Shown here: piece after piece, positions 17,468-64,000 of the stretch
Layout of the letters: every line of letters starts with the position of its first letter
How positions within the stretch are numbered: position 1 is the stretch's first letter
Origin: Pseudomonas sp. G2-4
GTDB taxonomy: Bacteria; Pseudomonadota; Gammaproteobacteria; Pseudomonadales; Pseudomonadaceae
NCBI RefSeq assembly: GCF_030064125.1
Contig: NZ_CP125957.1
Coordinates: forward strand, 2,418,001 to 2,482,000
Direction: 5' to 3'
Length of the DNA stretch: 64,000 nucleotides
The notes under the pieces: generated by a model
Seen by the model: the letters and a program-made list of their open reading frames with translations, nothing else
Told to the model about the DNA's origin: nothing
Database searches by the model: none
Made by a program: the position numbers and the translations under genes

Positions 17468-17496
17468 ATATAGGCATGCAGAGCCACGTTCCGCCC

Positions 17497-56706: not shown

Positions 56707-58450
56707 ATGCTTGAAACCTCGCCATCGATTCCCCTGAGCCTTCCTGTCGAGCGCGAGCTCAGTCTGCGTGCGGTCACGACGGGGATCGTGCTGGGTATCC
56801 TGCTGACACCGTCCAATGTCTACGCTGGGTTGAAGATCGGCTGGTCGTTCAACATGTCGATCATTGCCTTGCTGATCGGCTATGGCCTCTGGCAAGGCTT
56901 GGCCAGACGCTCAGCCGATCAATTGCCCTGGACCCTGCACGAAAGCAACATCAACCAGACCGTGGCTTCCGCCGCCGCGTCGATCATTTCCGGTGGGCTG
57001 GTCGCGCCTATCCCGGCTTACACCTTGCTAACCGGTCAACAGCTCGACGCCATCCCGATGATCGCCTGGGTCTTTTCGGTGAGCTTCCTCGGGATCTGGA
57101 TCGCCTGGTACCTGCGGCCCTCGCTGCTCAATGACAAGGCGCTGAAGTTTCCCGAGGGGATGGCGACCTTGGAAACCCTGCTGCACATCTACAACCACGG
57201 TCACGAAGCCGCGACGCGCTTGAAGGTGCTGCTCAGCGCCGCGTTGTTGTCCGCGCTGGTCAAGTGGGTCGATACCTTCATGTGGGCTTTCCCACGCTGG
57301 TCGCCGACCCCTCAGTTGGAGCGCCTGACGTTTACCGCTGACCCTTCGCTGCTGTTAGTGGGCTTCGGCGGGATCATCGGCATTCGCGTTGGCCTGACCC
57401 TGCTGCTCGGCGCCTTGTTGGCCTGGGGCGGGCTGGCGCCGTGGTTGCTGGAGCAAGGCCTGGTGCAGCTGCCGCCCGACAGCAGCGGCCCGCAGTTCGC
57501 TGCGTTGGTGGAATGGCTGCTGTGGCCGGGCGTAAGCCTGATGGTCTGTTCGACCCTGGCCTCCCTGGCGATTCGCTTGTGGGCCTTGCGCCAGTCCACC
57601 AAGGCGGACGGTGGGCGGATATGGGCGGTGCCCAAGGCTGGGCCGGCGGCCGGTTTCGCCTTGGCGATCGTGTTGGTGGTGAGCCTGCAAGCGCTGTTGT
57701 TCGGCATCAACCTGTGGATGGCCTTATTGACCATTCCCTTGGCGATCTGCCTGGCTGCCGTGGCCGCCCGAGTGGTCGGCGCCACGGGGCATTCCGCCCA
57801 TCGGCGCCATCGGACAGTTGTCCCAGTTGAGCTTCGGCATCGTCGCGCCGGGGCAGGTGCCGATCAACCTGATGAGCGCCAACACCGCCGGCGGTTCGGC
57901 CGGGCAGTGCACGGACTTGATGAACGACTTCAAAGTGGGCCGGGCGATAGGCGCCACGCCGCGCAAACAGTTGATCGCCCAGACGCTGGGGATTTTCGTC
58001 GGCAGCATCGTCGGCGTGTTCGCCTACCTGGCCCTGATCCCGGATCCGCAAGCCATGCTGCTCACCGAAGAGTGGCCGGCCCCGGCGGTCGCCACTTGGA
58101 AAGCCGTGGCGCAAACCCTGACCCAGGGGCTGGATTCGTTGTCAGCGAGCATTCGCTGGGCGATCTTCATCGGCGGCGTGGCCGGCTTGCTGCTGGGGAT
58201 GCTCGACAGCCTGTTACCCGAGCGTCGCGCCCGCTACCTGCCAAGTACCGCGGCCCTGGGGCTGGCCTTCGTCTTGCCAGCCTCGGTGTCGCTGATGATG
58301 GCGCTGGGCGCCGTGATCACTTGGGTCGTGAGCCGGGGTTGGCCAAGCCTCACAGAACGCTTCGCCATCACCGCAGCGGCGGGTTTGATTGCCGGCGAGA
58401 GCATTACCGGGGTGGGGGCGTCGTTGTGGCAGATGGTTGGGAATGGGTGA
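56707..58450 (+). pseudogene. OPT-family oligopeptide/metal transporter, frameshifted
   Basis: The frame from 56707 encodes an OPT transporter through AAVAARVVGATG, then turns to low-complexity Arg-rich sequence. The continuation (GIPPIGAIGQLSQLSFGIVAPG through WQMVGNG) is in the +1 frame to 58450. Removing one G from GGGG at 57786-57789 joins both into about 580 residues, the normal length of a short OPT protein with about 15 helices. As given the gene would be inactive, or the base may be a sequencing slip in a homopolymer. In the unbroken form it would import peptides or metal chelates across the inner membrane. Confidence 0.82.
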
Positions 58451-58637
58451 TGGCAGCTCGCTGCTCGCTCGAATCCAAGGCAACGCCCTACAACGATCGA
58501 ACACGAGTGGGTTTAGATGGCGCCCAAGCGAATAAAACAATTGAAAAAACCCTCTAGAAGCTTTAAACCGAAGGCTCACTGGCATATTGCAGACAATCAG
58601 TCAGTCAATATCGCCATTTCTGGCTCAGGGAGCGCTG

Positions 58638-61566: not shown

Positions 61567-62193
61567 TCATTTCTGGCTCAGAGCGGCGATGGAAAGTCCT
61601 GACACGATGAAGGTCAACCCCGCGCCGAGGTTGAGTCCGCTGGCGAGACGAGGGCGTTGATAAATGTATTGCGACAGGCGGGTGGCGAAGATGCCCATCA
61701 ACGAAAATCCCACGGCCGTCAGCAGAGCGAACCAGAACCCGTAGACCAGCATCTGCACAGTGACCGAGCCGAGTGCAGGATTGATGAATTGAGGGATGAA
61801 CGCCAGCACGAACAACCCTGGCTTGGGATTGAGCGCCGCGGAAAGGAAACCTGTGAGCAATATGTTTCGCAGGGGCTGCCGCGCGGCGGGTGCGAAGCTC
61901 ACCAGGCTCCTGGAACGCAGCACCTTGATCCCGAGCCAGAGCAGGTAGGCGGCCCCCACCAACTTGACCACCCAGAAGGCGACGGTCGAGGTCTGGATCA
62001 ACAGCGTGAGCCCCAGCGACGCGGTGGTGACGTGAAACAGGATACCCAGGCCAGACGACAGGCCCGACACGAGGGCAGCCAGGCGACCCTGGCTGAGCCC
62101 GCGTCCTATCGCCAGCAAATTGTCAGGGCCTGGAGAGAGGACCAGCAGCACGCAAGCTGTGGTGTAGGTGAACCAGATATCCATTGGAAACAC
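61567..62193 (-). CDS. LysE/RhtB-family exporter
   Basis: 208 residues with about six membrane helices. The family pattern is visible at the start (LLVLSPGPDNLLAIGRGLSQG), in YLLWLGIKVLRSRS and in FLSAALNPKPGLFVLAFIPQF. The GTG at 62193 has GGGAG 7 bases upstream and is preferred to the ATG at 62184. LysE/RhtB proteins export amino acids, homoserine lactones or related small metabolites. It lies 30 bases downstream of the LuxR-type gene on the same strand and is probably co-transcribed; export of a signal or of a tryptophan-type metabolite is possible. Confidence 0.88.
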   Translation of the reverse strand: MFPMDIWFTYTTACVLLVLSPGPDNLLAIGRGLSQGRLAALVSGLSSGLGILFHVTTASLGLTLLIQTSTVAFWVVKLVGAAYLLWLGIKVLRSRSLVSFAPAARQPLRNILLTGFLSAALNPKPGLFVLAFIPQFINPALGSVTVQMLVYGFWFALLTAVGFSLMGIFATRLSQYIYQRPRLASGLNLGAGLTFIVSGLSIAALSQK

Positions 62194-62223: not shown

Positions 62224-62937
62224 TCAACTGATGATGCCCAGAACGGCTGCCCTGACCACCGCTGCGGTTTTGTTAGTGGCGCCGAGCTTGCCCACGGCGT
62301 TCTTCACATGGAATTTGACGGTGTCGAAGGAGATGGCCAGGATCTGCGCGATCTCTTCCTGCGTCTTGCCATCGGCCGTCCAACGTAGCACCTCGATTTC
62401 CCGTGCGGTCAGCCGGTAATGCTGGGCCTGGTGTGACGGGGTGATCAGCAGCCTTTCCATCACTGGCGCGATAGTCTCGGCGAGCCAGCGCATCTTGAGT
62501 TCCTTGGCATTGAGTTCGGCCACATCCAGCGTAGAGCTGCTGCGGGCGAGCGTCAGCATGCTCTGGTGGCGCGAGGCATTGGTACGCGAGCAGGCCCAGC
62601 CGTATCTCAGGCCTGCGGCGCGAGCTTCTTCCCAGAACTGCGGCATCTTGCGCAGGAGTTCTCCCTGCCACAAAAAGGGTGTGGTGCAGGCGCGCGCGCG
62701 CTGTACTGAAGGGTCGACAAGCAGGAAATCGGCGTCGCTGTAGCGGCGTTGCCAGGTGCTCGAGAAATTGCAGCGCATCTGCATGATGGGGTTGGAAAAA
62801 GGCAGGGCTGTGCAGATACCGAACGAAAACCATTCGAAATCCAACTCCCAGGCAACACGTTGAACGCCGTTCACCAAGTCCTGCTCATCTTTGACCGAGC
62901 TTGTCCATGCCAGCAGGTTTTCGAGCCAAGTACGCAT
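62224..62937 (-). CDS. LuxR-type quorum-sensing receptor (solo in window)
   Basis: 237 residues from the ATG at 62937. An N-terminal autoinducer-binding domain keeps five of six AHL-contact residues of the family, at a constant +5 offset from TraR: Trp62, Tyr66, Asp75, Pro76 and Trp90. The C-terminal HTH (~170-235) includes LTAREIEVLRWTADGKTQEEIA and ISFDTVKFHVKNAVGKL. No LuxI synthase is in the window. A near-perfect las/rhl-type lux box lies at 63066-63083 between this gene and the divergent trpC-like gene. Most likely it senses an AHL and controls that operon. Confidence 0.92.
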   Translation of the reverse strand: MRTWLENLLAWTSSVKDEQDLVNGVQRVAWELDFEWFSFGICTALPFSNPIMQMRCNFSSTWQRRYSDADFLLVDPSVQRARACTTPFLWQGELLRKMPQFWEEARAAGLRYGWACSRTNASRHQSMLTLARSSSTLDVAELNAKELKMRWLAETIAPVMERLLITPSHQAQHYRLTAREIEVLRWTADGKTQEEIAQILAISFDTVKFHVKNAVGKLGATNKTAAVVRAAVLGIIS

Positions 62938-63065
62938 CGAATCTCCATTTCCGGATGCCGTTTCCCGACGTTTGTTATACCCCAGTGAAATCCCCTTGGA
63001 AAGCCTGCAGGGCCAGTGCCATCGCATGTCGGTGCGGTCCATCGCCGATGGCATCCTGGCGCCTG

Positions 63066-63083
63066 CCTACCCCATTGGGTAGG
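63066..63083. promoter_or_regulatory. lux box (las/rhl type)
   Basis: CCTACCCCATTGGGTAGG: 7-bp arms CCTACCC and GGGTAGG, with the CT-N12-AG spacing of LasR/RhlR/PhzR sites (CCTACC...GGTAGG). It is 120 bases before the trpC-like start and 128 before the luxR start, so it can serve either promoter. Confidence 0.75.
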
Positions 63084-63203
63084 TGGTTTTAAACCTTCAC
63101 GGCCATTAGGTTTGCTCCTCGCCGGCTGGCAGAGGAACCGCTCACTGCTTCTCTGCAGCCTTGTTACCGGCGTTATCCCAAACTCATTGATGGTGGTCGT
63201 TCC

Positions 63204-63992
63204 ATGCTCGAAGAGATTGTCAGATACAAAGTCCAGGAAACGGCTCAACGCAAGCAGGCGCATGGTATCGATGCCCTGCTCAAGCGGATTCGTGACGCAC
63301 GAGCGCCCCGTCACTTTGCCGGTGCCTTGGCAGGCGAGGGAATCTCGCTCATTGCCGAAGCCAAGTACCGTTCGCCGTCCAAGGGCGTGCTGCGTGCTGA
63401 CTATGATCCACTCCAGTTGGCGATGGCGTACCAGGCCGGGGGCGCCAGTGCCCTGTCGGTTATCGCCGACAGTCGGTTCTTTGGTAATGCGCCCCATGTC
63501 GTTGGCATGCTGGCCAACCATCCTCAAATCACCTTGCCGGTGATGTACAAGGACTTCATCGTCGATGAGTACCAAGTCTACGAGGCGCGGGCACTGGGCG
63601 CCGACGCGGTGTTGATGATCGTCCGCTGCCTGCCGCCCGGCAGCCTTGCGAGGTTGCATGCCTTGGCGAACCAGCTGGGGCTGGATGTATTGGTGGAGAC
63701 TTTTAACGAGGCGGACATCGACCAGGCGCTATCGGTCGACGCGTCGATAGTAGGTATCAACAATCGCGACCTCGATACCTTCAAGGTCGACTTCGACCGC
63801 TCCGCCCAATTGTTCGAGTGTCTGCCTGCTTCGGTTATCGCCGTGGCGGAAAGCGGTGTTGCCGGTCATCAGGACATGCAGTTGGTAGAACGCATCGGCT
63901 TTGCCGCCGCGCTGGTGGGGGAACGTCTGCTAACAGCTGCTGACCCTTGCCTGGAGAGCCGTCGGCTGCTGGGCGCGGATGAGGCTGTATGA
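63204..63992 (+). CDS. trpC: Indole-3-glycerol-phosphate synthase
   Basis: 262 residues of the TrpC (beta/alpha)8 barrel: LIAEAKYRSPSKGVLRADYD (catalytic Lys and Ser), LSVIADSRFFGNAP, LPVMYKDFIVDEYQV, LDVLVETFNEADID, VGINNRDLDTFKVD and AVAESGVAG. Catalytic Lys and Glu residues appear intact. The primary trpC of pseudomonads sits with trpGD; this copy is divergent from a LuxR receptor and is probably a second, secondary-metabolism copy. The stop overlaps the next start (ATGA at 63989), so it heads an operon that continues off the window. Confidence 0.9.
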   Translation: MLEEIVRYKVQETAQRKQAHGIDALLKRIRDARAPRHFAGALAGEGISLIAEAKYRSPSKGVLRADYDPLQLAMAYQAGGASALSVIADSRFFGNAPHVVGMLANHPQITLPVMYKDFIVDEYQVYEARALGADAVLMIVRCLPPGSLARLHALANQLGLDVLVETFNEADIDQALSVDASIVGINNRDLDTFKVDFDRSAQLFECLPASVIAVAESGVAGHQDMQLVERIGFAAALVGERLLTAADPCLESRRLLGADEAV

Positions 63993-64000
63993 CGATGCTG
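63989..64000 (+). CDS. Start of the next gene in the trpC-like operon (3' end outside window)
   Basis: ATG at 63989 overlaps the TrpC stop codon (ATGA) and gives only M-T-M-L before the window ends. The overlap suggests translational coupling with the trpC-like gene. No family can be assigned from four residues. Confidence 0.5.

Follow-up and report, generated by a model that had tools for sequence, protein, structure and literature searches.

A composite, AHL-linked Pseudomonas gene cluster that probably supplies tryptophan on site for a metabolite with an aminosugar/uronate-type core

The window (the whole 64,000-nucleotide stretch of DNA that was analysed, bases 2418001-2482000 of the one-contig, 6,651,895-base genome of Pseudomonas sp. 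G2-4, here G000) ends on the right with a luxR gene (luxR1) divergent from a trpC paralog; please refer to Table 1 for the positions of all features. LuxR1 was matched in Pfam by Autoind_bind (2e-21) and GerE (1.1e-18), and its closest solved relative is a quorum-sensing control repressor (3szt, E 8.5e-41). In the 238-aa reading the residues W62, Y66, D75, P76 and W90 were all found at the usual spacing, and we take these W-Y-D-P-W pocket residues of LuxR proteins to be the AHL contacts; an alternative, longer in-frame ATG lies at 63054. The trpC product scored over the IGPS (PF00218) cut-off at full length (5.1e-70) and without an internal stop, and the stop codon of the gene overlaps the next ATG (63989) by 4 nt. 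Upstream of trpC and its operon lies a lux-type box, CCTACCCCATTGGGTAGG, an 18-bp inverted repeat of CT-N12-AG form that is palindromic at 16 of its 18 positions. The sequence-only reading had placed here a luxR gene retaining five AHL-contact residues, an 18-bp lux-type box, an intact trpC and a LysE-type ORF, and each of them, residues included, was located where it had been claimed to be.

Table 1. Positions of the features described. Positions without a prefix are those of the window; L003 position = window position - 60000, and L005 position 1 = genome 2496001.
Feature	Position	Strand	Remark
LysE-type exporter ORF	61567-62193	minus	PF01810 7.6e-26; resident flank left of insert
luxR1	62224-62940	minus	238 aa; AHL-type LuxR regulator; first gene of inserted 15.2-kb piece
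Left end of inserted piece	62239		from G267 alignment; good to ~15 bp (alignment enters luxR1 end 15 bp)
lux-type box	63066-63083		120 bp before trpC ATG, 125 bp before luxR1 ATG
trpC paralog	63204 (ATG) to 63992 (TGA)	plus	262 aa; gene 1 of 14-gene operon
Gfo/Idh/MocA gene start	63989-64000	plus	351 aa; second operon gene; continues to genome 2483044
Gfo1, Gfo/Idh/MocA	L003 3989-5044	plus	operon gene 2
DegT1	L003 5041-6174	plus	DegT family
DegT2	L003 6171-7286	plus	DegT family
TIM	L003 7270-8139	plus	xylose-isomerase-like TIM barrel
M20 hydrolase	L003, ends 9397	plus	
Ldh2	L003 9404-10489	plus	Ldh_2
Gfo2, Gfo/Idh/MocA	L003 10486-11403	plus	
DUF6917	L003 11411-11809	plus	
B3/4 domain + TrpB fusion	L003 11806-13674	plus	
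trpA	L003 13671-14459	plus	
trpF	L003, ends 15082	plus	
trpD	L003 15147-16178	plus	
Nucleotide-sugar (UDP-sugar) dehydrogenase	L003, ends 17500	plus	TIGR03026 over its cut-off
luxR2	L003 17482-18330	minus	followed by trpG, trpE on same strand
luxI	L005 8076-8681 = genome 2504076-2504681	plus	Autoind_synth 1.2e-23, over curated cut-off, full length

The locus is cut by the window end, as had been supposed, and extension to the right recovered both the further biosynthetic genes and the luxI that had been sought there. The trpC gene heads a biosynthetic operon of fourteen same-strand genes whose neighbours overlap or lie at most 64 bp apart, in the order trpC, Gfo1, DegT1, DegT2, TIM, M20, Ldh2, Gfo2, DUF6917, the B3/4-TrpB fusion, trpA, trpF, trpD and UDP-sugar dehydrogenase (families assigned by Pfam and NCBIfam), with luxR1 divergent. 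It is of a type termed here trp+core: the core and trpCBA stand in one operon with a B3/4 domain and a cluster-type TrpC. The earlier description of the locus as indole- or anthranilate-derived needs correcting for the genes directly after trpC, which belong to a sugar/amino-type core and not to indole chemistry; trpBAFD come further along. The trpC gene proved to be a paralog as proposed, neither the sole copy nor followed by ordinary tryptophan genes: the primary trpE, trpGDC and trpA are located elsewhere in the genome, which holds two IGPS and two TrpA genes overall, the second IGPS gene being part of a conventional trpGDC locus close to trpE. Judged by family scores and motifs, the cluster Trp enzymes seem to be intact; they are 38-50% identical to the primary ones (TrpC 105/260, 40%; TrpD 143/341; TrpG 96/191; TrpE 176/463). 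Among the products of the trp operon we recognised no dedicated enzyme that would link tryptophan to a sugar.

Across 34 sequences, 30 columns of DUF6917 are invariant, including C34, H41, E42, C96, H97 and H101, and these residues look like those of an enzyme site. A model of the protein (pLDDT 93.3) searched against the PDB with Foldseek gave no match at E <= 0.001, the best being 0.36. Fusions to supply enzymes were observed at two of the loci, DUF6917 to Dxs in a Streptomyces plasmid (L011 19500-21827) and B3/4 to TrpB in Pseudomonas.

To the right of the operon lies a second set of genes, termed here the resident module. LuxR2 (Autoind_bind 8e-24, GerE 4.3e-16) carries the same five pocket residues at 92/96/105/106/120. 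After trpG and trpE follow, on the plus strand, genes for a PaaK-like ligase, a GNAT protein, a haem-oxygenase-fold enzyme, an FMN reductase, an EamA exporter, an alpha/beta hydrolase and LuxI. The closest PDB entry to LuxI is 3p2f, 'AHL synthase' (E 3.1e-38), which we take to be Burkholderia TofI. The statement that no luxI is visible was correct for the window, but the gene lies within the cluster, ~22 kb past the window end. The resident TrpE keeps a histidine that presumably corresponds to H398 of Salmonella TrpE, used by anthranilate synthases. A scan for a trp attenuator before the resident trpE gave no terminator-like site on the trpE strand.

Directly upstream of this trpE, between it and PaaK, is a 33-aa ORF ending FKSNIWRR (L005 2688-2786, minus; genome ~2498688-2498786), which resembles a leader or arrest peptide of the trpEG genes; it was found in 8 of 249 sampled Pseudomonas, each time with trpE within ~0.35 kb, and in G183 a stop replaces the Trp codon. 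The right flank of the cluster (L005 8657-17000) holds IclR, sugar kinase, enolase-family dehydratase, alcohol dehydrogenase, MFS, mannitol-dehydrogenase-like and UxuA-like ORFs, the first three also present in G267, and on a reading of the ORFs it is suggestive of hexuronate use. Within the window, the translation of a transporter-like ORF at 56707-58557 turns unlikely part-way and continues at 57818-58450 in another frame, so that this gene looks frameshifted.

The history of the locus was approached through its Pseudomonas relatives. Of 298 sampled Pseudomonas, 29 have the haem-oxygenase-fold gene at E <= 1e-30, 10 of them (own included) at >=75% identity; five relatives from these ten (G280, G267, G080, G135 and G183) were compared over 19 kb each. 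All five carry luxR2, trpG, trpE, PaaK, GNAT, oxygenase, FMN reductase, EamA and hydrolase. In none of these five 19-kb loci did trpC, any of the core genes or luxI give a match at 1e-15. G267 covers both flanks: its LysE gene adjoins luxR2 and its hydrolase gene adjoins the IclR gene. It aligns at ~91% up to joined position 2238 and resumes at 17484, with 13 nt between in place of 15,245 nt (L003 2239-17483) that span luxR1 to the UDP-sugar dehydrogenase. At a second gap, at the downstream end of the resident module, G267 has no nucleotide in place of the 546 nt holding luxI. On the evidence of these alignments the cluster is a composite, made of a 15.2-kb piece (luxR1 and the trpC operon) and a 0.55-kb piece (luxI) within a resident luxR2-trpGE/PaaK module. 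Loss of both pieces from G267, rather than their gain in G000, is the less simple account because each part also exists alone. The LysE exporter, which adjoins luxR1 as had been claimed, was considered as a member of the inserted cluster and ruled out: in G267, which has the empty site, it lies next to luxR2, and this places it in the resident flank.

G340 carries the composite as well, luxI included, with most genes at 94-98%, and the composite is also present in Pseudomonas zanjanensis SWRI12 (L013), the nearest named relative encountered, where the stretch compared ends within PaaK. Gfo1 was found in 2 of 398 sampled Pseudomonas and in 1 of 369 sampled members of the class, own genome included each time. 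The G+C content of the insert (61.7%) is like that of its surroundings, so that a foreign origin is argued from the empty site and the TrpC tree. No repeats were found within either junction and no 10-nt direct repeat between the ends, and thus no insertion mechanism is apparent.

Relatives of the operon were collected across phyla. A tblastn search of plasmids with Gfo1 gave four records (three Rhizobium, one Streptomyces), and a Gfo2 profile scan of genome contigs confirmed 185 of 224 stretches, of which the best 80 were kept and, with two plasmids, make up 82 loci. Genes were counted from matches over >=60% of the query, and the tallies are lower bounds as several loci end at contig ends. 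Among these 82 loci (best 80 of 185 plus two plasmids), Gfo2 is present in all, in 80 by construction, and the other core genes in at least 79 (Gfo1), 78 (TIM), 79 (M20), 82 (Ldh2), 71 (DegT1), 71 (DegT2) and 78 (DUF6917); the UDP-sugar dehydrogenase was counted in at least 35, or 40 at any length. At least 16 of the same 82 (best 80 of 185 plus two plasmids) are of trp type, namely SWRI12, Algicola, Sorangium and 13 Firmicutes, and all 16 genomes carry two IGPS genes over the cut-off. No luxI match was obtained in the 82 loci (best 80 of 185 plus two plasmids), and LuxR1 was matched there in SWRI12, with a further, weak match in one Streptomyces locus.

The trp+core operon was found in Paenibacillus, Bacillus, Halalkalibacter, Algicola and Sorangium. 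The operons of the first four genera (L014-L026, L028) share with the Pseudomonas operon trpC, trpB, trpA and mostly trpF, together with Gfo1, two DegT genes, TIM, M20, Ldh2, Gfo2, DUF6917, B3/4 and, in most, the UDP-sugar dehydrogenase; they differ in that no AHL genes were recognised, B3/4 and TrpB are separate and trpEG are not near. In the ~6 kb upstream of the cluster trpC of the 13 Firmicutes stretches, the Pseudomonas TrpE and TrpG gave no match at 1e-8 and TrpD was matched in 7, so that the mobile unit seems to bring trpDCBAF but no anthranilate synthase; in Pseudomonas this unit lies beside a resident trpEG. At a Bacillus locus (L129 3426-4877, minus) a GntR-aminotransferase (MocR-like) regulator is divergent from a trpDCBAF+core operon, and control of the operon thus seems to have been exchanged between lineages.

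In a TrpC tree of 34 rows, rooted at midpoint for drawing, one branch separates 17 cluster from 17 primary TrpCs with support of 100/99 and in 200 of 200 bootstrap trees. The warnings raised on this tree, long branches meeting (Algicola with Pseudomonas, and others) and ten weak forks, leave the order inside the cluster TrpC clade unsettled; the cluster/primary split is not among them. Judged from these comparisons, the trp+core operon is an old unit common to Firmicutes, Algicola and Sorangium, with a TrpC lineage of its own.

The core also occurs in actinobacteria and Rhizobium without trp genes, sharing Gfo1, TIM, M20, Ldh2, Gfo2 and mostly the DegT pair and DUF6917. The actinobacterial loci differ in carrying prenyl genes (the UbiA-like family in at least 25 loci) or Dxs; UbiA, IspH, polyprenyl synthetase, EF-hand and amine oxidase families were assigned there on one representative each. 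The Rhizobium loci differ in carrying EctB, an EgtD-like methyltransferase and an ATP-grasp protein, and the contrast between the two lineages suggests that each lineage attaches a partner of its own to the core product. The literature searched yielded no product of this cluster family.

We interpret the window edge, with a probability of roughly 0.6, as the left end of a ~26-kb composite, AHL-linked cluster that makes tryptophan on site for a metabolite with an aminosugar/uronate-type core. The cluster trp genes would supply the tryptophan, the insert having come without trpEG and the resident trpEG completing the route from chorismate. The UDP-sugar dehydrogenase would dehydrogenate a sugar nucleotide at C6, and oxidation and transamination by the Gfo/DegT pairs would then give an amino-uronate-type unit, with isomerisation and deacylation as further steps suggested by the family names. 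This unit and tryptophan may end up in one secreted metabolite. The luxI gene, read together with the resident operon, would make an AHL sensed by LuxR1 and perhaps LuxR2, and LuxR1-AHL bound at the single box would switch on the trpC operon. Protection of the cell against the charging of tRNA with a Trp-like product may come from the B3/4 domain, a relative of the Phe-tRNA synthetase editing region.

The box is the sole exact copy in the genome, with one further site at 3 mismatches, and chance matches (<=3 mismatches) are expected at a mean of 0.01 per 19-kb locus. It is common to G000, SWRI12 and G340. In G340, 47 of the 266 columns of the luxR1-trpC gap differ, with 0/18 in the box, 19/60 in the 60 columns 5' of it and 9/60 in the 60 columns 3' of it; its conservation in SWRI12 is little informative, as the entire gap is nearly identical there (8/266 columns differ). 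The gap gave no match resembling a sigma-70 promoter. Together with the two LuxR proteins retaining the contact residues and a canonical LuxI in the cluster, this unique, conserved box makes the AHL control that had been proposed plausible at the level of sequence. However, the 19 kb holding trpE, PaaK and luxI contain no copy of the box at <=3 mismatches, so that nothing links luxI or the resident module to LuxR1. LuxR1 could instead be a solo regulator responding to AHL from a second luxI or from neighbouring cells, with the cluster luxI serving LuxR2 or another receptor: one of the two LuxI-family genes of the genome lies at 2863236-2863754 (minus), is over the cut-off and outscores the cluster's own, and 22 kb separate luxR1 from luxI. 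We consider this arrangement unlikely, as luxR1 and luxI are both missing from the G267 resident locus and both present in G000 and G340.

Also doubtful, in our view, is that two adjacent clusters have been taken for one, the trp+core operon making a Firmicutes-type product and the resident trpEG/PaaK genes their own, anthranilate- or ADIC-derived one, with only the neighbourhood and perhaps regulation in common. Each does exist alone, trp+core in Firmicutes and others and the resident module in all five Pseudomonas relatives, and neither shares its LuxR or its type of EamA-like exporter with the other. An insert without trpEG nevertheless landed beside a resident trpEG, and luxI, which among the Pseudomonas loci compared occurs only in the composite, stands at the far end of the resident module; both argue for a single, joined cluster.

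The trp paralogs could alternatively form a resistant set, protecting the producer together with B3/4 from a product that blocks or mimics tryptophan. The B3/4 domain is tied to trp-type loci (15 of 16, Sorangium being the exception, against 0 of 66 others, among the 82 loci made up of the best 80 of 185 plus two plasmids), is fused to TrpB here and has a weak sequence match to Phe-tRNA synthetase beta (E 4e-05), and the modest identity of the cluster Trp enzymes to the primary ones would also suit such a role. Other supply genes, however, occupy the same position elsewhere, Dxs in at least 12 (0/16 trp-type) and EctB in at least 3 of the 82 loci (best 80 of 185 plus two plasmids), which better fits supply, and we regard the resistant set as improbable. 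A recent, ordinary local duplication of trp genes with incidental neighbours, to which the clear paralogy of TrpC and the intact look of the Trp enzymes might point, is scarcely credible, as the cluster TrpCs of Pseudomonas, Algicola, Sorangium and Firmicutes form a group separate from the primaries of the same genomes, and for trpC the 100/99 split rules it out.

On-site tryptophan supply by a composite cluster is thus the reading we prefer. A wider and bolder reading, which we hold to be less likely than not, is that of a widespread cluster class. An 8-9-gene core would make an amino-uronate-like head group, joined in each lineage by a dedicated line of primary metabolism: tryptophan in Firmicutes and some proteobacteria, isoprenoids in actinobacteria and diaminobutyrate in Rhizobium. 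The product of the Trp type would be a Trp-like antimetabolite, against which the producer retains B3/4 as a tRNA-editing domain. In Pseudomonas a resident anthranilate module would have captured the cluster, which the two-piece insertion of luxR1 and luxI then placed under AHL signalling. The locus itself is a clearly delimited example, with the empty site preserved in a relative, of how two insertions can link a cross-phylum biosynthetic operon with a resident module and with quorum sensing, and it points to a widespread cluster family with a conserved DUF6917 and a tRNA-editing-like domain tied to its tryptophan version.

Among known systems, the resident module resembles the benzoxazolinate/benzobactin clusters (PMC10098953) in that a PaaK-family ligase occurs together with a TrpE-like enzyme and an FMN-binding reductase. 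It differs from the benzobactin clusters in the absence of an NRPS gene among the module genes (L003/L005). The resident TrpE, which keeps the histidine and anthranilate-synthase-like motifs, may also differ from the ADIC synthase of the three-gene benzoxazolinate cassette, and the Fe-S motif of the dehydrogenase could not be clearly made out. With regard to LuxI/LuxR control through a lux box, the cluster is unlike the known arrangement in that luxI lies 22 kb off at the end of the resident module, the box occurs as a single copy and binding is here a prediction. It is like it in its two-domain LuxR with the contact residues, its Autoind_synth LuxI and the CT-N12-AG palindrome standing before the operon.
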